DNA of 64,000 bases, from positions 930,001 to 994,000 of the forward strand of contig CALSTV010000001.1 of assembly GCA_943789365.1 (NCBI GenBank), read 5' to 3'. Of this stretch, positions 40,701-64,000 are shown one piece after another. Below the pieces are notes generated by a model. It ran no database searches. It saw only the letters and a program-made list of their open reading frames with translations, and was not told the DNA's origin. Origin of the DNA: an uncultured Flavobacteriaceae bacterium (GTDB taxonomy: Bacteria; Bacteroidota; Bacteroidia; Flavobacteriales; Flavobacteriaceae). Numbering within the stretch: position 1 is the first letter of the stretch; every line of letters begins with the position of its first letter. The position numbers and the translations under genes are program-made.

Positions 40701-40896
40701 CTGGAATTTTTAGTAAAAAATTACCATCAAAATCGGTTGATGTTCCGGCTGTAAATCCTTTTACAAGAACATTTACGCCCGGAAGAGGTGACTTATCTTC
40801 ATCCAATACAACCCCAGAAATCTGTTTAGATTGTGCTAAAACAAAAAGCGGGAGGATAAAAATAAAATACAAGATTTTACTTTTCTTCATAATCAT
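37726..40896 (-). CDS. SusC-like TonB-dependent outer-membrane transporter
   Basis: 1056 residues with a signal peptide (about 1-22), a carboxypeptidase-regulatory-like domain (about 24-100, ISGVVLDEDKSPLPGVNV), and the TonB box region EEVVVIGYGTVRKSDLTGAVSSV. The plug domain has LLSGRAAGVQV, and PLYVVDGV and EILKDASATAIYGSRGANGVVLITTK follow. A 22-strand barrel ends VTLGVNVNF. It imports oligosaccharides captured by SusD, energised by ExbB/ExbD. The 237-base gap upstream contains a possible -7 element TAGATTTG at 41035-41028 without a clear -33, as expected for a regulator-dependent promoter. Confidence 0.97.
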   Translation of the reverse strand: MIMKKSKILYFIFILPLFVLAQSKQISGVVLDEDKSPLPGVNVLVKGFTAGTSTDFDGNFLLKIPEGASELEISYTGYSTQVIAITDQNNYNVQLVVDNNLLEEVVVIGYGTVRKSDLTGAVSSVKVDETVARQSTTVDQLLSGRAAGVQVIQNGTPGAGVSVRIRGGSSLRGNNEPLYVVDGVIISSAGEDAASADKGGNSAQESQNGLNGINPRDIESMEILKDASATAIYGSRGANGVVLITTKKGKKGKARINAYTTSSVSVVDKKFDMLNAVDFARYRNEAQIIGGNTPAYHIEDGEVYPVSSGNISETPARQVNWQDEIYKPGYSTQAGVSISGGSDTGNYYVSFGFNDQGGVVDNSRFQSGDIRLNMSQNLNKNLKMDVRLSGFQGNGEFAQDGDRTSGQRSFISNVLTYRPLIVTDEEDLEDLELSNPYSWITDYEDITEESRFFGNIAFTYTLPVKGLKYKIQMGGNKRYKERRRFYGLTTFLGQSLNGSLGVSDLKSTSYQINNLLQYNRTFNKIHRFNAVLGITYDVRKNNNEIYQLADFSTVEFRNEQPKYAQLVTTPLEAIISETQLMSYLGRVNYTLMNKYIFTGSFRVDGSSKFTEGNKHGFFPSASFAWKMHQENFMQSQGTINELKLRVGWGQIGNQAISPYQTASNYGSELYGTPSDGTGVSFVPVNIANDELTWETTEQLNAGVDIALWNNRVTATIDAYMKETDDLLQQVNLPRSTGFGSMLINRGSLSNKGLEFALSGTAVNTEDFRLDVSGNIAFNKSEITKLGIPLDNVIIDGETQQRSFYLGQNVSSGSYFKSPANIFIEGEEVGLFYGFETDGIYQEGDDIPVSNTQVGDIRIIDQLTVDTDNDGVPDAGDGVINGADRTIIGNPNPDFIFGLNINMEYKRFNLSMLFNGTSGNEIANGNLVRTTSLPGNGTNILATAYHNAWRPERPSNLFPRVGYDKENGATAITDRIIEDGSYFRLSNVTLGYDVPVSDGIIESMDLYLSGINLFTITGYSGYNPEITSFLNNANIVGVDWNGLPNVSTVTLGVNVNF

Positions 40897-41133: not shown

Positions 41134-44100
41134 TTAAGATTCATTTCTAAAATCCGCAACAAACTGACTTGGTGTTTTATTGAATTGTTTTTTAAAGCAG
41201 GTTCTAAAATATTTAGGATCGGAAAACCCGACCATAAAAATAACTTCTGTAATAGAATAATCATGTGACTTCAATAATTCAGATGCTTTGTTAAGTCGGA
41301 TCGATCTAATGAATTCTGAGGTAGATTGTTGACTGATCGATTTTATTTTCTTAAACAGTGTAGACCTGCTCATTCCAATAGCCACTGAAAAGTCTTCTAC
41401 CGAAAAACTAGCATCATCGAGATGTTCTTCAACAATATCCATCGCCTTTTTTAGGAAATCCTGATCGAGTTTATTTGAAAGCTCTTTCCATGAACTTCCT
41501 GAAGCATTGGTTTTAAATTTCTCTGCCCAAACCTTTTTTGTACGCAACAAATTATCAACTCTTAACTTGAGGGTTTCTACATTAAAGGGTTTTAGAACAA
41601 ATTCATCTGCCCCCGTTCCCAATCCTTCTTTCTCATTTTCAAGACCTGCTTTGGCGGTTAGAATAATAACAGGAATGTGACTTGTTTTCAAATCTGTTTT
41701 TATTTGGGTACACATTTCAATTCCATCCATTACCGGCATCATTAAATCACTAATAATAACATCTGGCGTATTTTCGAGTGCTAATTCAAGGCCTTCTTTT
41801 CCATTTTTGGCAGCAATTACTTTGTATTGTTGAGAGAAAAAATCTGTCAAGTAGGTTTGTAGTTCTTTATTGTCTTCTACAACCAACAAGGTTGGTGTTT
41901 CTTCTGTATATTCAATATTCTCTCCAATAATTCTATCGACGACTGTACTTTCTTTAGTTTCTTGAATTTCTTTTTTTAAGAACTTAAACTCATAGGAATT
42001 CGGTTGGCTTTCTAATATTGCATTTTCATCAAAATTGCTACGTTCTATAGGAATACGAACGGTACATTTTGTTCCTTCATGCAATACACTTTCTATTTCT
42101 ATGCTTCCTTTGTGGATTTCAACTAAATGTTTGGTATATGCCAATCCTAAACCTGTACCAATATGAATTGAATTGTCTTCCTTTTTAGCCTGATAAAAGC
42201 GTTCAAATATACTTTCTAACTCTTCTTTAGGGATCCCCATTCCAAAATCTTCTACAATGATTTCAGCTTGAACAAGGCCGTCCATTTCCTTTTTAGCTAC
42301 AGTCATGCGTATACTCTTCCCTCTAGGCGTAAACTTAAAGGCATTAGAGAGTAGATTGTACATAATTTTCTCAATCTTATCATTATCAAACCATGCATCC
42401 AAGGCTTGAATTTCAGAAAAGAAAACAAATTTGATATCCTTTTCTATGGCAATTTCTTCAAACGCTCTATATATCTCAGCTATAAAAGAAACAAGGTCAC
42501 CATTTTGAACCACTAAGTGTATGCTCCCCGACTCTGCTTTTCTAAAATCCAACAGTTGATTGATTAACTTGTGCAATCGTAAGGAGTTTTTATACATTAC
42601 GGCGTTCAGCTTTTTTAAGTACACCGGATCTTTGGTTCCATTCATTATTTGTTGTAACGGACCTATAATTAAGGTGAGTGGCGTACGCAATTCATGTGAA
42701 ATATTGGTAAAAAACTGCAATTTCATCTTATTGATTTCTTCCGATTTTTCATGGAGGGCAGTTTCTAATTCAAAAGCACTTTTCAACTTGAGCTGATTGA
42801 CCCGAAAACGCCCAACAACCACAATAACACCAATAAGTACTAACAGGAAGACTAGAATGGCTGAGCTTTTAAGGTACCAAGGTTGTAATACTACAATTTG
42901 AATTGCTTTGGGTTCTTCCATCCAAACACCGGCACTGTTAGATCCCGTTACTTTAAACGTATAGGTTCCGGGAGATATGTTGGTATAAGAAGCAAAACGA
43001 CGCTCTGACCCTTTGGATGAAGACCAGCCTTCATCGAAACCTTCCAAAATGTATTTGTATTGATTTTTTTCCGGGTTTGAATAATGTAAACTTGAAAAAG
43101 CGAACTCAAAAGAGTTTAAATAGCTCGGTAATGTAATCAGTTCCGTATCGTTGATATTCTTATCTAGAATTACAGTCCCTTCTACCTCTTCCTTAGGGTG
43201 TACTGTTTTATTAAACAATTTAAAATCGGTAATTGCCAATTGTGCTTTATTGGTATTTACGGATAAATTTGATGGCTTAAAAAAAGTAAATCCATTGACA
43301 CCTCCACATAGAAATATACCCGAGGAAGTCTTTAACATGGCATTGTCTTTAAACTCTGTCACCGCCAATCCATCTTGTTTTTCAAAATAGGTGATTTCAC
43401 CTGTGATAGGATTTAATTTTGATATTTCACGCACATGCATCATCCATATATTCCCTTGGTCATCCTCTTTTATTTGATATACAATATTGCTAGGCAGCCC
43501 TTCCTTTACGGAATAATTTTGAAAGGTCAATTCTTCTGTAGAGGCCGAAACATGTACTTGGTTGAGCCCTCCTCCAAAAGTAGCAACATATAAAAAACCA
43601 TTTCTCGATTGAAAAACATCCATAACATGATTATTACTCAAGGAGTTCTCAGAGTTTATATCTTTTAAATAGCGTTTAAATTGTATTGAGCCGTCTGGAT
43701 TTTCAATAACTCTATTCAACCCAACCACTGTACCAACCCAGAGATTGTTATTTTTATCTAAGGTAATATCTCTGATATAGTTATTTGAAATACTCGTTGG
43801 ATCATTAGGATCGTTCATAAAATTCTCCGATTCAAATGTATCTGTTGTCTGGTTGTAATTCAGCTTCACAAGCCCCTGATTCCAATACCCACTCCAAATC
43901 GTTCCTTTTTCATCTTCTTCAACTGCAAAAACAGAGGCATCAATTGTATTACCTTTCGAACTTTTTAACTTATCAAATACCTTAACGTCATAGGCTAATT
44001 TCTTCGATTTATTCTGTTTGATAATACTAAGACCACTTTTAGCCCCCACCCAAATTCGGTTTTTAGAATCTCTAAACAATTTTCGAACATCGTAAAAGGC

Positions 44101-45402
44101 AGCGTTTTTGAAGACTTTGTTTCCACCCAGGTAATTGTATTTCCAAGGGCTGGTAGCTGCATTTGAAATACTTTTTTGTATTTCACTTTCTTTAATTTGT
44201 GCCAGTCCTCCCAAACCATCTGTACCCATCCAAATGGTACCATCCTGATCTTCACACATCGCCAAAATTGGGAACTTGTGAAATCTTCTATAATAGTGTT
44301 CTGTAACTTTAACAAACTCGGATGAGTTTAGTAAGGTATTGTTATCTAAATCGATGGTAAACAAGCCTTTGTTCAAAGTTCCAAACCATAGAATATTAGA
44401 AGAATCTATAAAAAGTTGTTGAATCTGTTTGTTGGCTATTTGATAGTTTTCGTTTTTGTTGAAGCTATAGATTTCACCGGAACCTAAATCGTAGTTAATT
44501 AGCAAACCTTCACCACCAATCCACAATCGGTTGTTCTGGTCTCCTTGTATGGTCAAACGTTGAAAATTCGTTTGTTCCAAATTTTGTATTTGTGAAGCTA
44601 GATCAATCCTTTTTCTATAAATTACTTTTAAATTAGCATCGAGTTTTAGGTGCAATAATTCCAGATGGTTGCTCAGAAAATACATTTCATTGGGAGCATA
44701 TTCGTACAAATCAATGATATAACCATTTTTAAAAAAAGCAGCTTCAAAATCAGAATTAAAAACGGTCGTCGTTACTTTTCCCAGACTATCATTTAAACTA
44801 ATTTGACGTAGTTTTATTTTATCTTGACTGGTAACCATCCAATGTCTACCATTTTCCGCTTTGATGACCCGATTGATAGCTCCACGTACGCCAGGAATCG
44901 TTTGGAGTGTTTCGTCCACCAATACTTCTCCTTGCTCAGAAACTTTAAATGTTTTGATTGCCTTTTTAACATTGTAAAAAAGCAATCCAGATTCGGATTG
45001 AAAAAGCTGTGGTATATTGTTGAAATTTGCGGCATTTTTTTCATCGTTAAAAAAATGTGCTACTTGACCTGTATTTGGATTTACTCTGTTAATTCCAGCA
45101 TCGGAAGTACCTGCCCATATATTTCCGTCTTTATCTTCAAACAGATTGTGAATTAAATTACTACTCAAGCTATTCTTTTCGTTCGAAAAATTGAAATACT
45201 CCATGGAGTAACCGTCATATTTATTGATTCCATTGTAGGTACCAATCCACATAAAGCCACGAGAATCTTGTAAGATACTTTAAATAGTGTTTTGCGAAAG
45301 CCCTTGATCACCAGAAATTTCATTCAGTCTCCATTGGGCAGTCAATTGCATCTGAACTGCATACAAACAACAAAATAAAATGAAATGAAAATTCTTTTTC
45401 AT
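41134..45402 (-). pseudogene. Hybrid two-component system regulator (HTCS) with in-frame TAA at codon 41
   Basis: If read from the ATG at 45402, the product would be 1422 residues. It has a signal peptide (1-23, ending QLTAQ), a periplasmic two-bladed sensor made of Reg_prop repeats (MWIGTYNGINKYDG, WAGTSDAGINRV and many more), a Y_Y_Y domain and a transmembrane helix at about 845-868. The cytoplasmic part has His kinase His903 in NISHELRTPL, HATPase, a receiver with Asp1219 in SDLMMP, and an AraC-type HTH at the C-terminus. A TAA at 45282-45280 interrupts it within LSQNTI*SILQDSRGF. The rest is open and well conserved, so the lesion is recent, is a sequencing error, or is bypassed. A start at Met51 (45252) would lack the signal peptide. 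It is the PUL regulator by position next to susC. Confidence 0.85.
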
Positions 45403-47156: not shown

Positions 47157-47278
47157 AAAATCGTTTATAGTGTTAGTATTTCCACAAATTTCTAAAAAAC
47201 ACAAAGTACTAGTGGGGAGAAATGGTTTCTTATGGGGGAGTAATGGAGATTCGTAGTGTTCTTATTGCTCCATAAGAC

Positions 47279-48789: not shown

Positions 48790-50826
48790 TTAAACTTTGG
48801 AAATGTATTGAAATTTTTTCTTCCCAGAATTGAATTCAACTTTCATAAGATACACCCCTTTTTCAAGGTGGCTAATATCTATACTATTATCCTTCAACAA
48901 GGAACAATCTTGTATCTTTTTTCCGGTAAGCTGAAAAAGTTCAATACGCTGTATATGCTCTATTCCTTTTATAAACACGAATCCATCAGTAGGGTTAGGA
49001 TAAAAAATCACTTCATCTAATAATGTGTATTCAGATGTAGATAATTCTTCTGTAGGTACAATTTCCGTTAGAAAATCATCAAAATAATAGGTCCCCACTT
49101 CATTTCCACACAATGCTTTTACTTGAATTGAAGTTGTTTCCGAGTCAATATCAAAACTGTAGCTATACACATCTCCATAATTCGTAGCCAAACTTAAAGC
49201 AGGTGAGGTTTTATAAAGGGTTCCTTCAGATCCAATTATTTTGATTTGAAATTTAAAAGCACTTGCATCAGCCGATTTTGCATGGCATTTTACCGTCACC
49301 GTTTTTCCATTCAAATCCCCAAGATAAACATCGTTTTGCAGCAACACTTTGTTATAACCTACTGATGTTGTCACCTCAACTTTAGCAGCAGACTCTCCAG
49401 ATTTTGCATTGGCTTCTCCACCATTAGAAAATACAGCGACAGCACCCGAAACCACATTCAAAAACCAATTAGCATCATAGGAAGTACATTCATAACTGCC
49501 ATTTACAATCAATTCGTCTTCAAATTCTGGATCGCAGGCTGGCCAGGTACCCGAAGAAAGCAATGTGTTTTTAACATCTTCCACCCAAGTTGCTGTACTT
49601 ACAACTGTACTTTTTGTGGTTGTTTTTGGATTATAAGAGCTTACAGAAAAATAATCTTTATCATAGTTCACCACTCCGTTGCCATCGTTTCGCAAATGGA
49701 CGGTTTTATTCGATTCGGGTCCTGAATCCCAAACAGCAAAGGCAAAGCCACGATTGATCGCTTGTTCAGCACAATATCCATGAAAAGCAACTCTAGAATT
49801 GTTATCTGGACCTCCATCTGCAAAGCCGGTTGTATTCCCACTAATTTCTTGCAAATCACCCGTAGCATAGTTGTAACCATCTGTATTGTCTGCTCCGAAT
49901 TCCCCTAAATAGATTGGTGTGTTGTAAGTATCAGACCATACTGTCACCGTTTCAAAATGCGCTGCAAGTGTTGCTTTATCTTCTGCGGTCCCCCAATTAT
50001 TATCATCCTTTCCGTTTTTACTTGAACTTGTAAATGAAAAAGGTTTGTAATAGTGGAAAGTAGCTATTAGATAATCGTCACTAGCCAATAATTCAGGATC
50101 AATATTAGTAGGGGTTTCATAGGAAGTTTTAGTACCAGCTGTGAGCACGATATTCCTTGTAAGATTGTCTCCACCTGTACTTCTTATAATCTCAACAATA
50201 GCTTCGTTGATCACATCCATCTCTTCTTTGGAAACTTCAAAATAAGGTTCATTCACTATTTCAAAAAGAAGGTTATCATCACTATTTTTAAAATGATTCG
50301 CAATTTGTGACCATATGGTTCTAAATTTCTCATTATCTGCGGCTCGTTTAGCAGAAGTTGGGTGTGTATATTCACTTTGATCATCGGCAAAGGTGTAAAG
50401 AAACTCATGCTTTAAATCTGCCCCATGAAAATCCAACACCACGACCAAGCCTTGATCTAAAGCCCAATTGATTACTGTTGTTATTCTATTCAAATAGGTA
50501 CTAGAAACCACATAATCCGAAGCTGTTCCAGTATAGCTAGCAGCCGTTCCAATCTCTTTGCTATAAATTGATGTATCTCCTGTGGTTCTCACACCATAAA
50601 AATCCATTCCAATACGTACATTGGTAAAACCTGCATTTGCAACATCAATAAAATATTGTTCTTCAACTGCTGGCGACCAATTGCCTTCTATTGGTGCTTG
50701 AAGCACATTTCCTAAGTTGATGCCTCTACCCATTTTTTTCACCATTGTGTAGGGTGAAGTTTGGGCGGATAGTACTGTAGAAAACAGCATAATTGTAGTG
50801 TAAATAAACAGGTAGATTGCTTTCAT
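48790..50826 (-). CDS. GH5 endo-glycanase with binding module and T9SS tail
   Basis: 678 residues with a signal peptide (1-21, ending LSAQ). The GH5 catalytic barrel spans about 25-400, with MGRGINLGNVL, acid/base Glu193 in EIVNEPYF, FHYYKPF, and nucleophile Glu309 in YLGEFGADN. A CBM4/9-like module (about 445-600, NGSYECTSYDANW) and a type IX sorting domain (about 606-678, FYPNPTDGFVFIKG) follow. GH5 enzymes cleave beta-1,4-glucan, mannan, xylan and others; the subfamily cannot be assigned here. T9SS export places it on the cell surface, where it would make fragments for SusD/SusC. Confidence 0.92.
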   Translation of the reverse strand: MKAIYLFIYTTIMLFSTVLSAQTSPYTMVKKMGRGINLGNVLQAPIEGNWSPAVEEQYFIDVANAGFTNVRIGMDFYGVRTTGDTSIYSKEIGTAASYTGTASDYVVSSTYLNRITTVINWALDQGLVVVLDFHGADLKHEFLYTFADDQSEYTHPTSAKRAADNEKFRTIWSQIANHFKNSDDNLLFEIVNEPYFEVSKEEMDVINEAIVEIIRSTGGDNLTRNIVLTAGTKTSYETPTNIDPELLASDDYLIATFHYYKPFSFTSSSKNGKDDNNWGTAEDKATLAAHFETVTVWSDTYNTPIYLGEFGADNTDGYNYATGDLQEISGNTTGFADGGPDNNSRVAFHGYCAEQAINRGFAFAVWDSGPESNKTVHLRNDGNGVVNYDKDYFSVSSYNPKTTTKSTVVSTATWVEDVKNTLLSSGTWPACDPEFEDELIVNGSYECTSYDANWFLNVVSGAVAVFSNGGEANAKSGESAAKVEVTTSVGYNKVLLQNDVYLGDLNGKTVTVKCHAKSADASAFKFQIKIIGSEGTLYKTSPALSLATNYGDVYSYSFDIDSETTSIQVKALCGNEVGTYYFDDFLTEIVPTEELSTSEYTLLDEVIFYPNPTDGFVFIKGIEHIQRIELFQLTGKKIQDCSLLKDNSIDISHLEKGVYLMKVEFNSGKKKFQYISKV

Positions 50827-52550: not shown

Positions 52551-54182
52551 TTAAGGCATTCTAAAAGTGGTAATTGGGCTTGGTTCAAAACCAATTCTAT
52601 TGGCAATAGCTTCAATATATTTACCTTTTTCTACCTCCAAAGCGTTTGTATATATTTCCCAGGCCTTAACTCCTGTATATCTCCATAATATTGTTGCATC
52701 TTTTCGGCTGGAAGTGATTTTCAATTCCTCATTTACATATTCAAATTGCACTTTATCAAGTTCCTGTGCTCTCCCGTTAGGCTGCGATTCTTTGAGTATA
52801 TCCTGTTCTGAATAGACACCTAAATCTTTTGTCTCTACGATCCACTTTTCAAGTTGAGTTCTTAATACTTCCAATTCTTTAGAATAGGTCAAATCTTGAG
52901 CTAAATTGTGTAATTCGAATGGGTCATTTTGCAAATCGTACAACTCTTCCTCCGGTTTTGTTTTTGCAAACCACAATTTTTGTGTAGCATTTAATTTCCC
53001 TGAAGCATCCAATTCCATCATGTGACGCATCATGGGCATTTGTTCTCTATAGCTTACAGGAAGCGCATAAGGTACATCTGTATAATAATTCTTTATGTAC
53101 TTATAGCGTACTCCTCTCACCGCCCTTTTACGGTCATAACATTCATCAAACCTATCAGAAGCTGTAAAGAGGTATTCTCTTTTATCTTTTTCTGAATGCA
53201 TTCCTAAAAATGCCCTGCCTTGCATATATTCAGGAGGTTTAATGCCTGCAATTGAAAGTACGGTAGGTGCAAAATCAATAAAACTTATCAAGTCTGAGTT
53301 GCGTGTTTGTTTTTGTTTTCCTTCGGGAAGCTTAATAAACAAGGGCACTTTGGTCCCGGTTTCGTAGACAGATCGCTTATATCTGGGGAAAGGTCCACCA
53401 TGGTCTCCATAGAAAAAGATATAGCTGTTTTCATACAATCCATCTTTTTTGAGCTTCGCGATAAGATTGCCTACTTGTGCATCCAAACGCATTAAGTTAC
53501 TATAGTTGACCGCTAAATCATGTCGTATAACAGCATTGTCGGGAAATATTGGCGGGACGGGTACTTTGTTAGGATCTACCAACAGTTCTTCTTTACCATT
53601 TTTCCATATCTGGGATTCGTGTGTTATATTGTAATTAAATACGGCAAAAAATGGCTGTCCCTCTTTTCTGTTCCGCCAAGTTGCATTGTTTCCGGAAACG
53701 TCCCAAGTAGAAGTCAATGTTTTAAAATTGTAATCTTCTTTGGCATTATTTGTACAATAATAGCCGTTCACTCTCAACGCTTCTGTAAACGGTTTTACAT
53801 TTTCGGGTACAATAGGAGAATAAGTAGGTACGTTTATGGCTGGTTGATTATTCTTATTATAAGCACTAAAAGTTCTCATATTATGTGTACCCAAACTCGT
53901 TTGATACATCCCAGTAATCAAGCTACTTCTGGCAGGTGCACATACTGGTGCTGGTGAATAGGCTTCATCAAAAACAATACTCTCAGCTGCCAAAGATGTT
54001 AAATTAGGAACTACTATCGTGGAGTCTCCATACATAGGTAAAAAGTCGGGAGATTGATCTTCACATACGATCCAAACAATATTTGATTGTTCAGATGGTG
54101 TCGATGTTTCTTTGTTACTTGTACTACATGCTACTGTTAAACACAAAAGAAGCAGACAGCAAACAAAAATATTTTTTTTCAT
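52551..54182 (-). CDS. Sulfatase lipoprotein (S1 family), CAPAR type
   Basis: 543 residues with lipoprotein signal LTVACS (Cys19). The formylglycine motif is CAPARSSLITG with Cys81. The first metal site reads IVCEDQSPDF (Glu41-Asp42), the EDxSP form of one sulfatase branch. The second is YGDHGGPFPRYKRS. The C-terminal part ends with a beta segment (ITSSRKDATILWRYTG) beyond the usual fold. It is probably anchored to a membrane facing the periplasm or outside. It follows the esterase gene at 54196 by 13 bases in one operon. Confidence 0.93.
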   Translation of the reverse strand: MKKNIFVCCLLLLCLTVACSTSNKETSTPSEQSNIVWIVCEDQSPDFLPMYGDSTIVVPNLTSLAAESIVFDEAYSPAPVCAPARSSLITGMYQTSLGTHNMRTFSAYNKNNQPAINVPTYSPIVPENVKPFTEALRVNGYYCTNNAKEDYNFKTLTSTWDVSGNNATWRNRKEGQPFFAVFNYNITHESQIWKNGKEELLVDPNKVPVPPIFPDNAVIRHDLAVNYSNLMRLDAQVGNLIAKLKKDGLYENSYIFFYGDHGGPFPRYKRSVYETGTKVPLFIKLPEGKQKQTRNSDLISFIDFAPTVLSIAGIKPPEYMQGRAFLGMHSEKDKREYLFTASDRFDECYDRKRAVRGVRYKYIKNYYTDVPYALPVSYREQMPMMRHMMELDASGKLNATQKLWFAKTKPEEELYDLQNDPFELHNLAQDLTYSKELEVLRTQLEKWIVETKDLGVYSEQDILKESQPNGRAQELDKVQFEYVNEELKITSSRKDATILWRYTGVKAWEIYTNALEVEKGKYIEAIANRIGFEPSPITTFRMP

Positions 54183-54195: not shown

Positions 54196-55077
54196 TTACC
54201 AGTTTAATAGAGGTGTATACACCCTGAAAAATTCTTGACCAATTCTCTTCATGCTTTCGGTTACATAATGTCCAATAGGAGGTGGATTGGTAGGATAGAA
54301 ATTAACTGAATTTTTATTTTTTGATTGAGGAATCAAAAACACACGATCATCTGCCTCCGCAGTTTCTTGCATTCCTGTAACTACTTTTCCTGCTCCCACC
54401 TGAAACATTGCAAAAGGCAATTCTGGGCTGTGCAATTGTTTTCTTGTTTCAGTAATTAGGTTCTGTAAATTTTGTGCGTAGGTCTCTGATGGTTCTGGTC
54501 CTTTTTTCTTTACATTGCTATCTGCTTCTCCCTGACCCCATAACATTCCTGACAATTCATAATCAGACTCCTTGTATTCTTTTAATACTTCTTTGGTATA
54601 ACTAATGAAATCGCCAAACAGTTTCGGCTGGTTTAATTCATTCATCTGAGCAGCCTTCGCTTCTTCCCAACAAGGATTCCAACAACCATATAAAGAAGTA
54701 CCTCCAATCGATCTTTTTATAAAGATAAAGCGCTCATCAGGATGGGCTTCTGCCAATTCAATTCCGAAAAAAAGCTCCGGACCGAAATAATATTCCAAAG
54801 AATAATGCCTTTTTACATAGGCGCTTCCCTCCGACAGCTGTAATTTTGAAACGGGCTTATGATTGTAGTAAAATTGAATCCTATCGGCTACTTCCTCTAG
54901 TCTTTCTATATCTTTAGATGATAGTTTTCCTCCATCGGCCCGACCGTCCATATTTGATTGTCCTGCGAATAAAAATACGCGAATTGGTTTTTCTTTTACA
55001 CCTTTATGAGCTGCGGTTGCAAATGTACTGCTCCACATCATGCAAAAGCAAAAAACTATTGAGATTCTAAATTTCAT
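54196..55077 (-). CDS. SASA-type carbohydrate acetylesterase (PF03629-like, possibly CE6)
   Basis: 293 residues with a signal peptide (about 1-22). SGNH-type motifs are AGQSNMDGR with nucleophile Ser41, GGTSLYGCW, the block LWGQGEADSN, and catalytic His270 in PPIGHYVTES. The SASA family includes sialate O-acetylesterases and CE6 acetyl-xylan esterases. With no sialidase here and a GH10 domain in the same operon, acetyl removal from an algal or plant glycan is more likely than sialate chemistry. It lies 13 bases before a sulfatase and 58 bases after an alpha/beta esterase. Confidence 0.85.
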   Translation of the reverse strand: MKFRISIVFCFCMMWSSTFATAAHKGVKEKPIRVFLFAGQSNMDGRADGGKLSSKDIERLEEVADRIQFYYNHKPVSKLQLSEGSAYVKRHYSLEYYFGPELFFGIELAEAHPDERFIFIKRSIGGTSLYGCWNPCWEEAKAAQMNELNQPKLFGDFISYTKEVLKEYKESDYELSGMLWGQGEADSNVKKKGPEPSETYAQNLQNLITETRKQLHSPELPFAMFQVGAGKVVTGMQETAEADDRVFLIPQSKNKNSVNFYPTNPPPIGHYVTESMKRIGQEFFRVYTPLLNW

Positions 55078-55135: not shown

Positions 55136-55999
55136 TTAGAGTTCGAAGAAAGTATCTACATTCCCCTTTCCTTTCAAGTAGCCCAAAGAAACTAAGAAAG
55201 CATCCATCTTTTTAACGGTGTCTATAAAATACGCACCTTTATTAAAGAACGAATGAGGCTGACCTTCATACAAATGCAAGTCAATTCTGCTCCCTACTTC
55301 TTTCATCTTTTTTTCGTATTCTTTAGAAGATGCTACCGATGTAGTTTTGTCTTTGGTTCCAAAAAACACAATAGTTGGTGGTGCTCCTTTTGTGATGTTA
55401 TGCAAAGGAGATATTTCATCTACACGTCCTTCAATGGCTCTATAGCCGTAGCCGTTTTTACTGTTGTCATATACTGGATTAAATAACACCAAGGCATTGG
55501 GAACTGGGTTAACAGATAAGTCATCATTTGCATCATTTAAACCTTTTATATTACCACAAACTGCTGCCAAATGGCCTCCAGCAGAACCTCCACCCGAGGC
55601 TATCATATGAGGGTTGATTGAAAGTTCTTTTGCATGCTTTCGTACATACCTCATGGCAGATTTGGCATCGTTAGCCGCTTCAAATGGAGTCGTACCATGT
55701 ACATTTTTTATTCTATACACTACAGAAATGGCAATCATTCCTCTGGAAGCTAAATACTGTGACTGACGTTGAAATGCTTTGTAATTTCCTCCATTCCAAC
55801 CACCTCCGTGGTAAAACACCATACAATTGTAAGTTTTTGAAGCATCGAAATCTGTGGGTCTATATACCTTCAAATCTAACTGAATGGTATCAATCACTTT
55901 ATAGGTAATTGATTCAGGCATTATATTCTGTGTACTCTTTTGTCCAAATACTGCAATAGACAATACACAAAAACTTAAGATTAAAAATTGCTTTTTCAT
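55136..55999 (-). CDS. Secreted alpha/beta-hydrolase esterase (HSL/BD-FAE-like)
   Basis: 287 residues with a signal peptide (1-20, ending AVFGQ). Oxyanion motif YHGGGWNGG, nucleophile Ser139 in SGGGSAGGH, Asp217 in FFGTKDKTT and His249 in GQPHSFF complete the triad. Relatives act on acetyl or feruloyl esters of xylan and other glycans. It follows a sulfatase gene by 2 bases. Together with the SASA esterase it suggests that the PUL substrate carries acyl groups. Specificity is not determined. Confidence 0.88.
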   Translation of the reverse strand: MKKQFLILSFCVLSIAVFGQKSTQNIMPESITYKVIDTIQLDLKVYRPTDFDASKTYNCMVFYHGGGWNGGNYKAFQRQSQYLASRGMIAISVVYRIKNVHGTTPFEAANDAKSAMRYVRKHAKELSINPHMIASGGGSAGGHLAAVCGNIKGLNDANDDLSVNPVPNALVLFNPVYDNSKNGYGYRAIEGRVDEISPLHNITKGAPPTIVFFGTKDKTTSVASSKEYEKKMKEVGSRIDLHLYEGQPHSFFNKGAYFIDTVKKMDAFLVSLGYLKGKGNVDTFFEL

Positions 56000-56001: not shown

Positions 56002-57426
56002 TTATTTTTTCTTTTTAGGTTTTTTAACAAATGCATTGATACCTTTCCTCCAATCTTTAACCTTCTTTAGGAGCTCATTGGCTTTCTCAGGATTACTTTC
56101 AGCCAAGTTATGCATTTCAGATGGGTCTTTAGCAATATTGTAAAGTTCTACATATCCCTCCTCATAAAAATCGAGCAGTTTGTAATCTCCAACACGCACT
56201 GCGGTGTTCGATCGGTCTCCTGTGCTTGTAGGTCTTGGCACTGGGGAATGCCAAAATATTTCTCTGTCTTTATCTTTGTCTTTTTTCCCTTGTAAGGTTT
56301 TCATAAAACTCTTTCCGTCTAGATGCTGTTTTTGCTCTAAGGGAAGCTTGTTCATCTCCAACAAAGTTGGAAAGTAATCTGTTCCTGTGATTACTTTATT
56401 GGTAGTACCAGATTTGGTCACTCCTGGCCACTTTACAAAAACGGGTACGCGAATACCTCCTTCATAATTATGTCCTTTTCCAGCTCTTAATGGCAAGTTT
56501 GAGGTTGCCAATCCACGTTTATTACCTCTATTCGACAAACCTCCATGATCTGAAGTAAATACGATGATGGTATTGTCGTCCAAATGCAATTCTTCTAAAA
56601 CCTTAGTAATTGCCCCAAAGCTTTCATCCATACTTTGAATCATACTCGCGTAGGTAGTATTATCTTGGTGCACCTTGGTTTCGCCTGTATCCCCTATTCT
56701 AATATAGTCGGAACCCTTTGGTGGATTTTTATCTAATTTTGCTTGATATTTTGCTTTGTATGCTTCTTTTCCTTCAAAAGGTGTATGCACACCGTAGTGA
56801 CTTACATAAGCAAAGAAAGGTTCGTCTTTATGAGATTTGATAAACTCCACCGTTTTTCTAGTGATATGATCTGTAAGGTAATCACCTTCCTGAGCATCAT
56901 CTAAGTGTAAAATTGCCTTTTCCTTACCATTCCCGTTCTTTGGGTTTTTCTGCTTGTTATACGGATAAAAGTAACTTTTTGGTGCTCCGGCGTGTCCACC
57001 ACCATAATTGTAGTCAAAACCTTGATCTTCGGGATAGACTTCTGCTCCAGCCAAGTGCCATTTTCCCGCAAAAAACGTGGTATAGCCACCTTTCTTAAAA
57101 GCTTCTGCAATGGTAAATTCAGATTTTTTCAAATGCGATTCGTTTCTTCCTGGGCTCGAATTACGCGCCGGAAATTTTCCGGTTACCATGGCCATACGAG
57201 AGGGTACACAACGAGGATGTGCTGCATAGGCTTGTTCAAAACGCATGCTTTCCATCGCTACTTTGTCAATATTAGGCGTTTCGTAAAATGTACTTCCTCT
57301 ATAACTCAAATCCATCCAACCCAAATCGTCGACCAGAAAGAAGATTACATTTTGTTTTTTGTTTTGACTGTTTACTGATACTGCCGCAAAAGTCAATAGT
57401 ATTAAAAATAACTGTTTTGTTTTCAT
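56002..57426 (-). CDS. Secreted sulfatase (S1 family), CVPSR type
   Basis: 474 residues with a signal peptide (about 1-20). First metal site FLVDDLGWMDL (Asp33-Asp34), formylglycine motif CVPSRMAMVTGK with Cys73, GKWHLAG, second metal site TSDHGGLSNRG. The C-terminus is a basic tail ending KPKKKK. Its start overlaps the stop of the sulfatase gene upstream by one base (TAATG), so the two are translationally coupled. Maturation needs a formylglycine-generating enzyme encoded elsewhere. The substrate position it desulfates is not known. Confidence 0.94.
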   Translation of the reverse strand: MKTKQLFLILLTFAAVSVNSQNKKQNVIFFLVDDLGWMDLSYRGSTFYETPNIDKVAMESMRFEQAYAAHPRCVPSRMAMVTGKFPARNSSPGRNESHLKKSEFTIAEAFKKGGYTTFFAGKWHLAGAEVYPEDQGFDYNYGGGHAGAPKSYFYPYNKQKNPKNGNGKEKAILHLDDAQEGDYLTDHITRKTVEFIKSHKDEPFFAYVSHYGVHTPFEGKEAYKAKYQAKLDKNPPKGSDYIRIGDTGETKVHQDNTTYASMIQSMDESFGAITKVLEELHLDDNTIIVFTSDHGGLSNRGNKRGLATSNLPLRAGKGHNYEGGIRVPVFVKWPGVTKSGTTNKVITGTDYFPTLLEMNKLPLEQKQHLDGKSFMKTLQGKKDKDKDREIFWHSPVPRPTSTGDRSNTAVRVGDYKLLDFYEEGYVELYNIAKDPSEMHNLAESNPEKANELLKKVKDWRKGINAFVKKPKKKK

Positions 57427-59033
57427 TACTTGATGGCTTTATTGATATTCTCTTCACTATAAACACGCTCTACGACCATATCGGTCATGGCACGCATTTC
57501 CTCAAGACTCATATCGTCTTTAAACTCAACTTGTAATTCTTTGATACGTTTTTTCAAGGCAGCAGTAATTTCTTCATACCCAGGTTTCCCGTACAAATTA
57601 TTCATTTCATGCTTGTCATTATCGAGGTCAAACAACTCCCATTCATCCATACTGTAATAGAAATGGATTAGTTTGTAACGATCTGTACGTACTCCATAAT
57701 GCGGTTCAACGTTGTGCCATTTTGGAAATTCGTAATAGTGATAATAAATGGCATCTCGACCCTGCGCTTCAATGTTCGGAGACAACTGATTTTTAAAACT
57801 CGTTCCCTGCATGTCTTTTGGTGTTTCAATACCTGCCAAATCTAATAAGGTAGGTGCAAAATCTATATTCAACAATAGGTTGTCATTCGTCGTACCAGGT
57901 TTAATCATTTCAGGGTAGCTAATCATAAACGGCATTCTAAAGGATTCTTCATACATAAATCGTTTGTCGAACCATCCATGTTCCCCCAAATAGAAACCTT
58001 GATCTGAAGTATATACGATTACCGTATTGTCTAACATATCGTTTGCCTTCAAGTAATCTAACATCTGTCCCACTGCCTTGTCAACACCCGCTACACAGCG
58101 CAAATAATCTTTGATATAAGTTTGGTATTTCCAATTTTTCAATGCTGCTCCTTGCAAGCTATCATGCGGTGTCCAAAACTGACCTTTGTTTCCAAAGGCA
58201 TTGTAAGTATTTAATTCTCTTGGTGTTAATTTTTCTTTTGGGTATACTTTTAAATCTTTACGATTCATATGGTTTTCGATTTCCATCCATTGTTTACTCG
58301 CTGCTTTTCTTCCTTTGTAATCATCGTTAAAGTTGGCAGGGTGCGGCAAGTCTTCCTGAAATAATTTTTGGAATTCGGGTGCTGGTTCCCAAGGTCTATG
58401 TGGCGCCTTGAATTGGTACATCAACATAAAAGGCTTGGTCTTATCACGTCCTTGATCTAACCATTTTATGGCATCGTGGGCTACTTGGGCAGTCGAATGT
58501 CTGGTTTTCTCTACCATTGTATCTTTTCCATTTTCCAGAAATACAGGATTGAAATAAGTACCTTGTCCACCCCAATTGATCATTACTTTCGAATAATCAA
58601 ATCCGGTAGGCGCAGTTCCTAAGTGCCATTTTCCAATGACCGCTGTTTGGTAGCCATTTTTTTGTAATATTTTAGGGAATGTTTGCTGACTTCCATCAAA
58701 ATCGCCTCCTTTTTCATTTTTAAAGAAACGGCTTTCGTGTCCATACTTCCCTGTTAAAATAGCCGCTCTACTTGGTCCACAAATAGAGTTCGTATTGAAG
58801 GTTCTAGTCATCAACATCCCATTTTTTGCAATTCTGTCTATATTGGGTGTCGGAGCTATTTCTGACAACCAATCTTTGTAAGCGCTTATGGCTGCTACGG
58901 CATGGTCATCTGCCATGATGAATAAAATGTTTGGTTTGGTTTCCTCTACTGTTTGTTTATTATCTGAACAGGAATTCATTCCAAATGTTAAAACTAAGCA
59001 TATAATTGCTGTAAATATTGTGTTCGCCTTCAT
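57426..59033 (-). CDS. Sulfatase lipoprotein (S1 family), CGPSR type
   Basis: 535 residues with lipoprotein signal FGMNSC (Cys22). First metal site IMADDHA, formylglycine motif ICGPSRAAILTGKY with Cys85, GKWHLG, and the segment TSDQGFYLGEHGWFDKR, which marks a common branch of marine and gut sulfatases. The active site is complete. It is translationally coupled to the next sulfatase and lies 5 bases after the GH3 gene. The lipid anchor differs from its soluble neighbour, so the two may act in different places. Confidence 0.94.
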   Translation of the reverse strand: MKANTIFTAIICLVLTFGMNSCSDNKQTVEETKPNILFIMADDHAVAAISAYKDWLSEIAPTPNIDRIAKNGMLMTRTFNTNSICGPSRAAILTGKYGHESRFFKNEKGGDFDGSQQTFPKILQKNGYQTAVIGKWHLGTAPTGFDYSKVMINWGGQGTYFNPVFLENGKDTMVEKTRHSTAQVAHDAIKWLDQGRDKTKPFMLMYQFKAPHRPWEPAPEFQKLFQEDLPHPANFNDDYKGRKAASKQWMEIENHMNRKDLKVYPKEKLTPRELNTYNAFGNKGQFWTPHDSLQGAALKNWKYQTYIKDYLRCVAGVDKAVGQMLDYLKANDMLDNTVIVYTSDQGFYLGEHGWFDKRFMYEESFRMPFMISYPEMIKPGTTNDNLLLNIDFAPTLLDLAGIETPKDMQGTSFKNQLSPNIEAQGRDAIYYHYYEFPKWHNVEPHYGVRTDRYKLIHFYYSMDEWELFDLDNDKHEMNNLYGKPGYEEITAALKKRIKELQVEFKDDMSLEEMRAMTDMVVERVYSEENINKAIK

Positions 59034-59038
59034 ATCAA

Positions 59039-61402
59039 TTATAATTTTAATGACAATCTCTCGTCAACTTTTAATTTTGTTGTTTTTAAATGCTTATTTG
59101 CTGAAGAACTACCTGTCATAATTGTAAAGGTCCCTGGCTCTACACAATATTGCATATTGATATCATAAAATGCCAAGCTTTTGTCTGATATTGTGAAGCT
59201 AACGGTCTTAGTCTCCCCTGCTTTTAAATATACTCTTTTGTATCCTTTCAATTCCTTAACAGGTCTTGTAACAGAGCTTACATCATCTCTGATATACATT
59301 TGGACTATTTCTTCTCCAGCTACTTTTCCTGCGTTTGTAACTTCTACAGAAACGGTAATATCTTCACCTGCCGTTTTGTTTTCTTTCGACAACACCGGCA
59401 CACCATATGCATATTTTGTATAACTCAATCCAAATCCAAATGAATACAACGGAGTCATTTTTTCAAAGGCATATTTATGAAACCCGATTGACGGCTTATG
59501 GTTATACACCATCTCTAGTTGCCCAACACTTCTAGCTACGGTAAGTGGTAATTTCCCACTTGGGTTAACGTCTCCAAAAAGCACCTCAGCCACAGCTTGT
59601 CCTCCAAACAGTCCTGGCTCCCACGATTCTACAATGGCAGGCACATTTTGCGCTAACCAAGGTTCAGATATCGGCTTTCCATTTACGAGCACTACAATTA
59701 CAGGAGTACCTGTTTTTTTAATTGCTTTTACAAGGTCTAATTGTTTTCCAGCTAAGTTTAGATATGCTCGTCCCATGTTTTCACCAGCCGTTTTTTCAGG
59801 CCACTTGTAACGCATAGAATTGTCTCCAACCACGACTACTGCATAATCTGCTTTTGAAGCTTGTCTTGCTGCTTCTTTTATTTTTGAAGTTTCTATTTTA
59901 CGAATGTTCTCTCCAGAATCATAGAAAGAAACGTTATAACCTTTTGAACTTCCTACGGCTTTTATTCCTTCATAGATTGTTGTTACATTTTCATCGGGCT
60001 GCACCGCATGCCAATCTCCTAAGATACTTTGATTGTTGGCATTAGGTCCTGTTACAAATACTTTTTTACCATTTCCTTTCGATTTCAATGGCAATACATT
60101 TTTGTTTTTTAACAACACAATCCCTTTTCGTGCACTTTCCAAGGCTGTTTTCTTGTGCTCAGCTGTAAAGATTCTCTCCGGAATTTTCTCCAAATCGACT
60201 TGTCGGTGTTCGAACAAACCTAATTTGAATTTAGCTGTTAAAATCTTAGACACAGCGTCATCAATTCTACTTATTGGTAGTTTCCCTTCATTTACTAAAG
60301 CTACAACGGCTTCAGGAAATTTAACTCCGTGCATATGCATATCCATTCCTGCCGCAACAGATAGCATAGAAGCTTCTTTTAAATCGTGTGCTACATGGTG
60401 TACGGTTTCAATTCTTTCAATGTCCATCCAGTCACTAACATAAAAACCTTGAAAACCCCAATCGTTTCTAAACAAATCGGTCATCAACCAAGAACTCATA
60501 TGACTTGGGATCCCGCTTATTTCATTGTGTGCAGCCATGATCGAATACACACCAGCATCTATCGCCTGTTTATAGGGAGGTAAGTACACTTCTTTCATGG
60601 TTCTTACTGAAACATCGAATGGAGCAGCGTTCAACCCATTTGCAGGTTTTCCACCACCTAACATATGCTTGGCACAGGCAATTACTTTTTTATCTCCTGT
60701 AAAATCTCCTTGTTGGAATCCTTTGATCATTTCTGCTCCCATGTTTCCAACCATAAATGGATCTTCTCCATAGGTTTCACCAACACGTCCCCACCTCGGA
60801 TCTCTTAGTACATCAATATTAGGTGTAAAAGCCCAGTGACTTCCTGTAGCTCTCATCTCCAAAGCGGTTTGTAAACCAACATCATAAGAATAGGCATCTA
60901 CCCAACTCGAAGCTAAGGTTATTGGCGATGGATATACAGTTGTTCCAGATACTAAAGCGTTTCCATGTATGGCATCAATTCCAATCAATACAGGTATCTT
61001 TAGACGTGACTTTGCAGCTAATTCTTGTAATAAATTTGCCTCTTCTGCCGTAAGTACATGTAAGAACGAACCTATTTTCCCTTCAGCACACATTTGAGCA
61101 ACGTCGTCACTAAATAAGCCTTTGTAGAATCCTTGGGCATCGTTGCTATGCAAATCTTCTTCTGAAAGATTTTTTTCAGCTTCACGCATATGATCCAATC
61201 CAACAAATTGATTCATTTGATAGACTTTCTCTTCTAAAGTCATTCTTCCCATTAAGTCTTTTACACGTTCTTCTACAGAGACGCTAGGGTCCAAATAAGT
61301 AGGATTATCTTTGTTTTGATCCGCTGCTTTTTCAGATGAACAGGCAACTGCTGCCAATACTATTGAAACGAAGCCTGTAATTTTTAAAAAGGACATTTTC
61401 AT
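59039..61402 (-). CDS. GH3 beta-glycosidase lipoprotein (BglX-like)
   Basis: 787 residues with lipoprotein signal AAVACS (Cys21). The N-terminal barrel has GIDAIHGNAL, FTPNIDVLRDPRWGRVGETYGEDP, KHMLGGG, and nucleophile Asp324 in YVSDWMDIERI. The C-terminal alpha/beta sandwich and a fibronectin III-like domain (about 680-770) follow. The layout is that of BglX-type beta-glucosidases and beta-xylosidases. With the second GH3 at 31090 the PUL has two exo-acting enzymes of different branches. It lies 15 bases after the fusion gene. Confidence 0.94.
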   Translation of the reverse strand: MKMSFLKITGFVSIVLAAVACSSEKAADQNKDNPTYLDPSVSVEERVKDLMGRMTLEEKVYQMNQFVGLDHMREAEKNLSEEDLHSNDAQGFYKGLFSDDVAQMCAEGKIGSFLHVLTAEEANLLQELAAKSRLKIPVLIGIDAIHGNALVSGTTVYPSPITLASSWVDAYSYDVGLQTALEMRATGSHWAFTPNIDVLRDPRWGRVGETYGEDPFMVGNMGAEMIKGFQQGDFTGDKKVIACAKHMLGGGKPANGLNAAPFDVSVRTMKEVYLPPYKQAIDAGVYSIMAAHNEISGIPSHMSSWLMTDLFRNDWGFQGFYVSDWMDIERIETVHHVAHDLKEASMLSVAAGMDMHMHGVKFPEAVVALVNEGKLPISRIDDAVSKILTAKFKLGLFEHRQVDLEKIPERIFTAEHKKTALESARKGIVLLKNKNVLPLKSKGNGKKVFVTGPNANNQSILGDWHAVQPDENVTTIYEGIKAVGSSKGYNVSFYDSGENIRKIETSKIKEAARQASKADYAVVVVGDNSMRYKWPEKTAGENMGRAYLNLAGKQLDLVKAIKKTGTPVIVVLVNGKPISEPWLAQNVPAIVESWEPGLFGGQAVAEVLFGDVNPSGKLPLTVARSVGQLEMVYNHKPSIGFHKYAFEKMTPLYSFGFGLSYTKYAYGVPVLSKENKTAGEDITVSVEVTNAGKVAGEEIVQMYIRDDVSSVTRPVKELKGYKRVYLKAGETKTVSFTISDKSLAFYDINMQYCVEPGTFTIMTGSSSANKHLKTTKLKVDERLSLKL

Positions 61403-61417
61403 GAGTTCTATTTTTTG

Positions 61418-64000
61418 TTATGATTTTATTACTAATGGTGTATTTGGGTTTTCTATTGCTTTTTTCACAGCTTTAAAGGCTGGTTTTTCTTTTCCGTTTG
61501 CATTAAACATAAACATATGCCTGTTTTTATGCTGTGGCACCCCGTCTACCATTCCCCAGGTATTATAAGTTACTACGCCACTATCTTTTTTCGATAATAA
61601 GATTTTCATAATATTGGAGTAAGCTGCTGCCTGAAGTTCTAGTGCCTCAGCTGTGGCATTTGTATCCCATATTTTATAGTCTATTTCTGTCACGTGAAAA
61701 TCCAAATCATTTTCATGTGCCCAGTCTACTAGATTCGAAAAATAGTCAAGGCTCGTTTTATCTAAAGACACTTCTTCTGTCGATTTAAAATGTGCTTGCC
61801 AACCAAGGCCATCTACTCTGTAGCCTTGCTCTCTAAGATAAAGTATCGTTTTTTTAACACGTTCCCACATCACTGGCTCCATTCCTCCGTGCTGATTGAA
61901 TACCAGGCTCTTTTTTGTCGCGTATTTGTTTGCGATTTCAAATGATTTGGTGATATAAAGTGGTACACCATTTTTATCTAAACCTATTTGAGTCCAAGGA
62001 TTTTGCCAGTCTTTAGTCCCTGGTTTCTCTGCAAACCACTCTCCTTTTCTAGTAACTGTTTCATTGACAACATCCATCCATTTCACAGTTTTATTTTTAT
62101 TGTATCGTTTGCAGGATGCTTTAAGAAATTCGGTGTAGATTTTTTCTAACTCTTCTGGGGTTCTATGATCTGCCGTTGCCCATTTCGAAGCTTGCGGACT
62201 CACAGGACCATGCACACGAACTACGATATCGTTCTTTTTTGCAAATTTCAAATACGCGTCAATTTGCGTCCAATCCCAAACTCCAGGTTCAGGATGTACT
62301 CTCGACTGTTTTGCACAGTTTTCTGGGGTGGTGTAAGTAAATTGCTCTAAAAACAAATCTTCTACAAACGTACCTAACTGACGGTGGTTTAAAGTAGCTC
62401 CTACATAGACACGTGTTGGGTCATATTGTTTTGCAAGCAATTCTTTTATAGAGCCACTAGGTGCATTTTTAGAAACCGACACTTTTGGTTGACTTTGCTG
62501 TGCAAAATACGTCATTGCAAAAGCTTTTAATTCTTTGTGTATGGCTTTATGAGATTCGACTCCAATAAAATTTCTAGTTTCTAATGGATCGTTCACATAA
62601 TCGTACAATTCCTCGTCAATAATATCTCTCGACTTTACCCCGTCAACACTCTTAACATTTGGTTTTAACCAAGCGGTATATCGATACTTTTCTGAACGAA
62701 AACTGTAACCTGTAGTTTTCCCTTTTGCCCATTGACTTACGGCTACATCTTTTATGCTTTTCTTTCTTCCGTCTATCAAAGGCAACAAACTTTTCCCCTC
62801 TAAAATCTCCGGAATTTTCAAGCCAGACAATTCACAAAGGGTTGGAAAGATATCTACAAATTCTGAAGGCGATGTTACTTTTACACCTTTGGCAATACCT
62901 GGCGCATAAATCATAAGTGGAGAACGTGTTGCTTGTTCGAAATTCGAATGTTTGTTCCACATACTATGGTCACCCAAGTGCCATCCATGATCACCCCATA
63001 CAACGATGATGGTGTTTTTATTCAGGTTTTTTTCCTTGAGTTTGTCTACTATCAAACCTACTTGTGTATCCACAAAACTTACACAGGCATAGTACCCATG
63101 AATCAATTCTCTTTGGGTTTTATTATCAATTTTTAGCAAACCATCTTCTCCTATAACATACTCAATTGAAGGGTCTTTATAACTTCTCATCTCACCTGAA
63201 CTATGATAAGCTAAATCGGTTCCGTTTTTTACTTTTTTCTGATATGGGGCAAGGTTGATCTTATCAGCATCGTATAAATCCCAATATTTGTTTGGCGCTA
63301 CAAATGGTAAGTGAGGTCTTTTAAAACCAACAGCTAAGAAAAATGGCTTGTCTGGAGTCTCCGCTAGCGCATCCAATTTCTTAAGTGCATCTAATCCTAT
63401 AGCTCCATCGGTATAAGCAGCATCCGGTACATCACTTCTTTCAAAAGGAGGTTTGTATCTATCTGTTACATATTTGTTGGTGTTTTTCACGCCTTTGCTT
63501 TTTGCTTCGGCAACGAGTTCCGAAACTCTTGCTTTAATTTTTGGGTTTTGGTAATACCCAAGTGCTGGGGAACCGTATTCTTTTGGATATGGTAATTTAT
63601 ATTCTCTTACATAGGGTACCGACCAAGACGGCTCGTCTACGAATTTATCTACACATCTGGGATCGTAAATTTTCCCTGTCCCTGTGGTTATATATCCTTG
63701 TTCTTTAAAATATTGAGGGATCGAAAGAATAGTTGGATTTATGTCACGCATCCGTGTTTTTAAGTCTCGCACTTTCGTGTAGTCTGGACGCATTCCGGTC
63801 ATCAAACTCGCTCTTGAGGGGCCACAAACTGCCTGTTGCGTATGGTTGTTTAAAAATACGGTTGCTTTTGCTCCCAACTTATCTAAATTAGGAGTTATCG
63901 CATAACTATCACCATAACTGCCAAGGGTAGGTTTTAAATCATCAATGGCAATAAATAACACATTGGGCGCTTGTGCTTGTTTTTGTGCTTGCAGGCCTAT
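61418..64000 (-). CDS. Sulfatase-GH10 fusion, 5' end beyond the window
   Basis: 860 residues are visible. The first are IGLQAQKQAQAPN, the likely end of a signal peptide, so only a short N-terminus is missing. Visible residues about 13-500 form a sulfatase of the iduronate-2-sulfatase-like branch: FIAIDDLKPTLG, formylglycine motif VCGPSRASLMTG with Cys59 (63826-63824), and WGDHGWHLGDHSMWNKH. Residues about 520-855 are a GH10 barrel: TTPENCAKQ, RVHGP, acid/base Glu647 in MDVVNETV, nucleophile Glu772 in HVTEIDYK. A linker of about 20 residues joins them. Catalytic residues of both domains are intact. The fusion suggests linked desulfation and backbone cleavage, with a sulfated xylan as the leading substrate. 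Confidence 0.92.
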   Translation of the reverse strand: MGLQAQKQAQAPNVLFIAIDDLKPTLGSYGDSYAITPNLDKLGAKATVFLNNHTQQAVCGPSRASLMTGMRPDYTKVRDLKTRMRDINPTILSIPQYFKEQGYITTGTGKIYDPRCVDKFVDEPSWSVPYVREYKLPYPKEYGSPALGYYQNPKIKARVSELVAEAKSKGVKNTNKYVTDRYKPPFERSDVPDAAYTDGAIGLDALKKLDALAETPDKPFFLAVGFKRPHLPFVAPNKYWDLYDADKINLAPYQKKVKNGTDLAYHSSGEMRSYKDPSIEYVIGEDGLLKIDNKTQRELIHGYYACVSFVDTQVGLIVDKLKEKNLNKNTIIVVWGDHGWHLGDHSMWNKHSNFEQATRSPLMIYAPGIAKGVKVTSPSEFVDIFPTLCELSGLKIPEILEGKSLLPLIDGRKKSIKDVAVSQWAKGKTTGYSFRSEKYRYTAWLKPNVKSVDGVKSRDIIDEELYDYVNDPLETRNFIGVESHKAIHKELKAFAMTYFAQQSQPKVSVSKNAPSGSIKELLAKQYDPTRVYVGATLNHRQLGTFVEDLFLEQFTYTTPENCAKQSRVHPEPGVWDWTQIDAYLKFAKKNDIVVRVHGPVSPQASKWATADHRTPEELEKIYTEFLKASCKRYNKNKTVKWMDVVNETVTRKGEWFAEKPGTKDWQNPWTQIGLDKNGVPLYITKSFEIANKYATKKSLVFNQHGGMEPVMWERVKKTILYLREQGYRVDGLGWQAHFKSTEEVSLDKTSLDYFSNLVDWAHENDLDFHVTEIDYKIWDTNATAEALELQAAAYSNIMKILLSKKDSGVVTYNTWGMVDGVPQHKNRHMFMFNANGKEKPAFKAVKKAIENPNTPLVIKS

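Follow-up and report, generated by a model that had tools for sequence, protein, structure and literature searches.

A recurrent sulfatase-GH10 fusion in a marine Bacteroidota polysaccharide utilization locus, a candidate bifunctional enzyme for a sulfated xylose-containing glycan

The window analyzed here is a stretch of 64,000 nucleotides from an uncultured Flavobacteriaceae genome (G000 C1:930001-994000; surrounding genome of 3.73 Mb, 99.84% complete), and a sulfatase-GH10 fusion gene lies on the minus strand at its far end. Identified by open reading frame, Pfam, and genome context, the gene occupies 61418..64000 (-) within the window as a single open frame that contains no internal stop and runs to the window edge. 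In the surrounding genome, the complete gene spans window positions 61418..64042 (-) (L003:1418-4042 (-)), encodes 874 amino acids, and starts at an ATG sitting 42 bases beyond the window end, so the window coordinates miss the first 42 bases. The N terminus of the protein is hydrophobic. An S1 sulfatase domain with its C-terminal subdomain covers residues 26 to 507 of 874 (62522..63967, -), as delimited by Pfam (Sulfatase PF00884, 145.8 bits; SGSH_C PF16347, 47.1 bits; both over cut-off), phmmer, and the model match. It is followed by a linker of approximately 33 residues (508 to 540; 62423..62521, -), defined with approximate borders as the gap between the Pfam stretches and including a low-confidence stretch of the AlphaFold model, and then by a GH10 domain at residues 541 to 861 (61460..62422, -), recognized by Glyco_hydro_10 (PF00331, 132.6 bits; cut-off, 22.1) and by a GH10-only model. 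AlphaFold, run with an alignment of 34 rows on the 860 residues encoded within the window, gave a model with a mean pLDDT of 87.1 and a pTM of 0.66. A preliminary description of this DNA had joined a sulfatase and a GH10 domain in one polypeptide with the catalytic residues of both intact. The uninterrupted frame, the domain search with all three Pfam profiles over cut-off, the model matches, and the presence of C73-G-P-S-R, E661, and E786 bear out both points.

The FGly maturation motif of sulfatases has the consensus C-x-(P/S)-x-R, and the C-G-P-S-R of the fusion protein (residues 73 to 77; 63812..63826, -) agrees with it. The form C-x-P-(S/A)-R is present in 42 of the 46 fused frames, and the remaining 4 are truncated by a contig edge ahead of the motif. 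Among solved structures, P18_S1_7 (6HHM; 275 bits) matches the sulfatase half best, followed by iduronate-2-sulfatase (227 bits; phmmer). 6HHM also ranks first in Foldseek, and model residues 10 to 505 superpose on it with a Z score of 47.3 and an rmsd of 2.1 (447 aligned residues, 38% identity). Judged from its sequence, this half classifies as an S1 sulfatase that is probably S1_7-like, its closest solved relative being an S1_7. Excerpts of PMC9096561 list S1_7 P18 as acting on the xylose-2-sulfate of ulvan and another S1_7 on the galactose-4-sulfate of kappa-carrageenan. An excerpt of PMC8360166 likewise gives S1_7 as a xylose sulfatase in ulvan degradation, and these parts of the two papers disagree on endo versus exo action of S1_7 xylose sulfatases. 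The next rank of iduronate-2-sulfatase, together with the kappa-carrageenan activity in the PMC9096561 excerpt, suggests that S1_7 is not one single activity.

In the GH10 half, the catalytic glutamates align with those of solved xylanases: the acid/base E661 lies in MDVVNET (codon, 62060..62062, -) and the nucleophile E786 in HVTEIDY (codon, 61685..61687, -), and each site is conserved in 96 of the 96 rows reaching it. Model residues 513 to 854 match Thermotoga Xyn10B (3niy) with a Z score of 37.5 and an rmsd of 2.3 over 314 aligned residues, while the GH10-only model (pLDDT, 90.8) matches Cex (3cuf; Z, 36.0) and Thermotoga Xyn10B (3nj3; Z, 36.0). The profile score over the cut-off and the (beta/alpha)8 GH10 fold of the predicted model place the domain in GH10; its identity to solved GH10 structures is 18 to 26% in the 50 rows shown of the structure search. 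Ten positions that we take, in Cex numbering, to line the active site (K47, N44, H80, Q87, N126, E127, Q203, H205, E233, and W273) are kept in 96 of the 96 rows reaching them, and E127 and H205 are also named in the title of structure entry 2his. In the same numbering, W84 and W281 are presumably the active-site tryptophans of a canonical GH10 endo-beta-1,4-xylanase, and the fused domain has neither of them. No tryptophan was found between H80 and Q87 (the W84 site) or within 20 residues past W273 (the W281 site) in any of the 96 rows reaching each site. The rows derive from 97 frames that are not mutually independent: 94 are distinct, and two represent pieces of a single broken gene. The reference for the comparison is one canonical GH10, the second copy of the same genome; four solved chains, which belong to the two enzymes 5y3x and CbXyn10B, have both tryptophans within the stretches shown, and they read HTxVWHNQ where the fusion protein reads HGPV.SPQ. 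In addition, the clade has extra residues inserted behind the acid/base and a last loop, past W273, of reduced length, and the Pfam GH10 score is 132.6 bits in the fusion versus 343.2 bits in the second GH10 of the genome. These sequence features place the GH10 half in a divergent clade. Since this clade lacks W84 and W281, the equation of GH10 with xylanase is unsafe here, and we rejected GH10 membership as proof of xylan. The expression of some Maribacter GH10s on arabinose and galactose, reported in an excerpt of PMC11036162, is a further reason against that equation.

The genes downstream of the fusion on the same strand form a polysaccharide utilization locus (PUL). The next gene of the cassette encodes a GH3 (59039..61402, -; Pfam), whose best solved match is JMB19063 (3u48), then the beta-xylosidase 7zb3, and whose best NCBIfam model is a beta-xylosidase (581 bits versus a cut-off of 1350). 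Two further S1 sulfatases assigned by Pfam complete the cassette, the second of its sulfatases (57426..59033, -) having as best solved match 5g2v, an N-acetylglucosamine-6-sulfatase, and the third (56002..57426, -) having 9fo1, an S1_16 kappa-carrageenan sulfatase. Pfam then identifies an alpha/beta-hydrolase esterase, BD-FAE like (55136..55999, -), a SASA-type carbohydrate esterase (54196..55077, -), and another S1 sulfatase (52551..54182, -). A GH5 with a type IX secretion tail (48790..50826, -; Pfam and structure matches) is a predicted secreted or surface endo-enzyme with endoglucanases as its best solved matches. Interleaved with it are three other type IX-tailed proteins (45942-47204, 47339-48643, and 50972-52168, -), which gave no Pfam match over cut-off except the sorting tail. 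Farther along, Pfam assigns a hybrid two-component sensor-regulator (41134..45252, -), a SusC-type TonB-dependent transporter (37726..40896, -), a SusD-type glycan-binding protein (36206..37714, -), a second GH3 (31090..33336, -), and an S1 sulfatase at the far end of the locus (29480..30907, -). The protein encoded after susD (34590..36203, -) is, from its position, a putative surface glycan-binding protein; Pfam returned a weak Cadherin match below cut-off and no carbohydrate-binding match.

Directly upstream of the fusion gene and outside the window, L003:4238-7618 (-) encodes a type IX-tailed protein of 1,126 amino acids in which a CEMIP beta-helix scores over cut-off and an F5/8-type domain matches weakly, below cut-off. 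It adjoins the sulfated-glycan locus and could be an unrecognised depolymerase. The genes galT and galK lie approximately 4 to 6 kb upstream of the locus on the same strand. Elsewhere in the genome, which yields 78 sulfatase-profile matches (a few genes give two), a canonical GH10 (343.2 bits) is found at 1.51 Mb (L005; G000:C1:1508001-1524000), in a locus that also encodes several sulfatases, an MFS transporter, two GH43, and a GH29. Near this second GH10, at 1.53 Mb, lie a xylose isomerase that scores over cut-off and a xylulokinase-like gene that does not reach it, the isomerase being 0.5 Mb from the fusion locus.

When named genomes were scanned with the GH10 alignment, 158 places were confirmed, and the best 80 of them were kept. 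The GH10 lies fused behind the same kind of sulfatase in 44 of these best 80 of 158 loci, a share that describes the closest relatives, with the 36 loci scored as alone including one cut by a contig end (L035). The partnership recurs across Bacteroidota: the fusion was found in, among other named organisms, Lutibacter sp. HS1-25, Reichenbachiella faecimaris, and Marinoscillum sp. MHG1-6. Most of the remaining records are MAGs or single-cell genomes of uncultured Bacteroidota, and one (L077) is labelled Chlorobiota. In a search of 149 genomes, 7, our own included, have a GH10 of the clade at an E value of 1e-20 or better: fused in G000, G047, and G050, alone in G008, G004, and G001, and broken by stops in G075 (L018:9925-11058, where in-frame stops interrupt the gene in a single-contig genome). 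The fusion is thereby present in 2 of the 6 other relatives with a clade GH10, and the counts of both searches overlap, the G050 and G008 proteins being identical to those of the named loci L098 and L068. A class-wide search, limited to two scored candidates for each genome and an E value of 1e-60, found the GH10 part in at least 2 of 395 genomes (G000 and G502), a lower bound.

Neighbors were counted by BLAST to the window's own proteins, which misses distant families. Half of the fused loci (22 of 44) are flanked by at least 5 kb on both sides; another sulfatase is found in all 22 and at least two in 19, SusC or SusD in 16, a GH3 in 13, and a GH5 in 7. Counted over all fused loci, a GH5 is found in 12 of 44. 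The unfused loci with the same flanks (21 of 36) contain a sulfatase in 15, a GH43 in 7, and a GH3 in 2. A GH43 is present in the locus of 11 of the 36 unfused clade members. In eleven unfused loci (L042, L048, L054, L064, L075, L076, L078, L080, L083, L085, and L096) the GH10-clade gene follows a GH43 that is 60 to 66% identical to one in the second GH10 locus of the window genome, and 8 of these 11 hold two GH10 copies. Longer fusions, with frames of 1,165 to 1,305 amino acids and extra sequence between sulfatase and GH10, were observed in L038, L045, L046, L053, L055, L061, and L082, of which L045 belongs to the cultured strain Reichenbachiella faecimaris DSM 26133. Pfam identified CBM_4_9 modules in two segments, the linker of L038 and the tail of L056, and found no match in the extra segment of L084.

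A quick GH10 tree needs 5 changes between fused and alone, one of which (L035) is a mere contig cut, compared with a mean of approximately 32 in shuffles; fused and unfused members cluster. This tree is unrooted in effect, the canonical GH10 being too far removed to serve as a root, and its rows do not include the GH10 of the window itself. In a FastTree of the sulfatase half, computed without frames of 350 or fewer aligned residues and frames closer to another sulfatase, the fused rows need 3 changes, and the window falls among fused Flavobacteriaceae with Lutibacter L065 as its nearest neighbor (support, 81). The Polaribacter MAG locus L102:6003-8978, nested among the fused rows, encodes sulfatase and GH10 as neighboring genes, and its GH10 has its own N-terminal signal-like stretch. 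This nesting implies that the fusion was split at least once with the partners kept together. G502 likewise encodes its GH10 and an S1_7-like sulfatase as separate genes, both within one sulfatase cluster. The quick tree places the GH10s of G001, G004, G075, and G502 in the fused clade, while the S1_7-like sulfatases encoded in their clusters fall among the unfused rows (FastTree; support, 92); the GH10 of these four genomes seems to have lost or changed its partner.

We consider it somewhat more probable than the contrary that the fusion is a periplasmic bifunctional enzyme, desulfating and then cleaving its substrate, in a PUL for a sulfated xylose-containing algal beta-glycan. The N-terminal signal-like stretch, with no type IX tail match and no lipobox, points to a periplasmic location. 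With crude regular expressions, a lipobox-like N terminus was found in 2 of 46 fused versus 26 of 50 unfused frames and a hydrophobic N-terminal run in 35 of 46 versus 40 of 50, classes that give a mere hint at a soluble periplasmic fused form. Secreted enzymes such as the type IX-tailed GH5 would cut the polymer, and SusC/SusD would import sulfated and acylated oligosaccharides. The S1_7-like domain would then remove a chain-blocking sulfate, most likely 2-O on xylose, before the tethered GH10, using its two glutamates in a retaining mechanism, cuts the beta-linkage thus exposed, and the GH3, other sulfatases, and esterases may complete the breakdown. This reading is favored by the nearest solved sulfatase, P18_S1_7, with its listed xylose-2-sulfate specificity (excerpt of PMC9096561), and by the two domains, their catalytic motifs, and a GH3-sulfatase-sulfatase cassette that matches a published pattern as far as that paper's available text describes it. 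It is also favored by the recurring fusion, the sulfatase-rich neighborhoods, the CBM_4_9 modules of two relatives, the separate-gene partners of L102 and G502, the GH43 in 11 of 36 unfused loci, and the xylose isomerase over cut-off in the genome. It is weakened by the missing W84 and W281, with which specificity may not be for xylan, by the diversity of S1_7 activities, by the endoglucanase matches of the GH5, and by the position of the xylose isomerase near the other GH10 locus with a xylulokinase match below cut-off. Sulfated beta-1,4-xylan proper is a less sure substrate than a sulfated xylose-containing glycan.

A plain sulfated beta-1,4-xylan, with the GH10 half as an ordinary endo-xylanase, would fit the Pfam assignment, the closest solved folds listed (GH10 xylanases), and the sulfated xylan or xylose-rich substrates predicted in the available text of PMC6794258. 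The absence of tryptophan at both sites in 96 of 96 rows, the shortened loop and the insertion, and the Pfam score far below that of the second GH10 make this account unlikely, though not negligibly so. The same altered cleft argues for a backbone other than xylan, namely a sulfated heteroglycan such as a xylose-substituted beta-1,4-glucan in which the GH10 cuts a linkage that other GH10s do not, as do the endoglucanase-like GH5, recurring in 12 of 44 fused loci, and the two esterases. Against it stand the ten other active-site residues kept throughout and the CBM_4_9 modules of two relatives, and we regard it as an unlikely but serious candidate. The preliminary description had read a sulfated xylan or related pentan from the GH10 family; a sulfated xylose-containing glycan remains reasonable, but the absence of W84 and W281 and the GH5 matches do not allow GH10 alone to point to xylan.

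The proximity of galT and galK on the same strand could indicate a galactose-containing sulfated glycan. Of 17 galK loci from relatives, our own included, 13 have the two genes together, and in the same-genus genomes G001 and G004 galK and the GH10-clade gene lie on separate contigs. The adjacency looks incidental, and we rejected this target as quite improbable. That the fusion might be a frameshift product or an assembly join, the possibility left for checking at the outset, found no supporting point; the same architecture in 44 of the best 80 of 158 loci and in two of six other relatives, one of which (G050) is identical to L098, led us to reject it as having practically no chance of being correct. 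More tentatively, and with the odds somewhat against it, the fused GH10 may typify a separate subfamily of GH10 in marine Bacteroidota, with a sugar cleft rebuilt (W84 deleted, the W281 loop lost, and a new loop gained past the acid/base) to take a marine heteroglycan's sugar that is substituted or has just been desulfated, acting together with the S1_7 domain and being inactive or poor on ordinary xylan.

Sulfated xylose-rich glycans are a predicted food of bloom bacteria in the available text of PMC6794258. A conserved, sulfatase-fused GH10 clade with a changed cleft offers a concrete target for identifying that glycan, and it warns against reading GH10 as xylanase in marine annotations.

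The fusion is a real and recurrent one that the literature already mentions as part of PULs. The pairing had been taken as unreported, yet excerpts of Krueger et al. 2019 (PMC6794258) describe a "sulfatase domain-containing GH10" in putative sulfated-xylan PULs of Formosa, Aurantivirga, and Polaribacter and call the predicted substrates, sulfated xylan or xylose-rich, putative. Its view as uncharacterized stands, as no biochemical or enzymatic study of the fusion was found in the open-licence literature, the scope that we covered (subscription papers lie outside it); the available parts of PMC11036162, PMC11573768, PMC10877868, and PMC10405439 contain nothing on it. The Aurantivirga MAG AB_MB169, named in an excerpt of PMC10108472, has a contig that holds the fusion locus L093, and sulfated beta-xylan PULs whose SusC/D were expressed in a 2009 bloom are predicted in an excerpt of PMC6298971. 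Pattern 1 of Krueger et al. 2019 (PMC6794258), as excerpted, consists of the fusion, a GH3, and two further sulfatases and is matched by four genes in a row at 56002-64000 of the window. The match rests on the description of the fusion, the available text not stating the domain order of its proteins, and our locus is longer, adding a GH5, two esterases, a second GH3, and more sulfatases.

Among solved enzymes, P18_S1_7 of Formosa agariphila (6HHM) resembles the sulfatase half most closely, but its solved chain of 475 residues has no glycosidase domain and its substrate is ulvan. The ulvan enzyme P36 (6HR5; excerpt of PMC8360166) likewise unites a sulfatase and a glycosidase in one protein, although it pairs an S1_25 sulfatase with a GH78 rhamnosidase and so differs from the window fusion in both subfamily and family. 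Thermotoga Xyn10B and Cellulomonas Cex share with the fused GH10 the fold, the two catalytic glutamates, and the ten active-site residues; unlike them, the fused domain has no tryptophan at W84 and W281, carries an insertion past the acid/base, and stands at 18 to 26% identity (50 rows shown) to solved GH10 structures.
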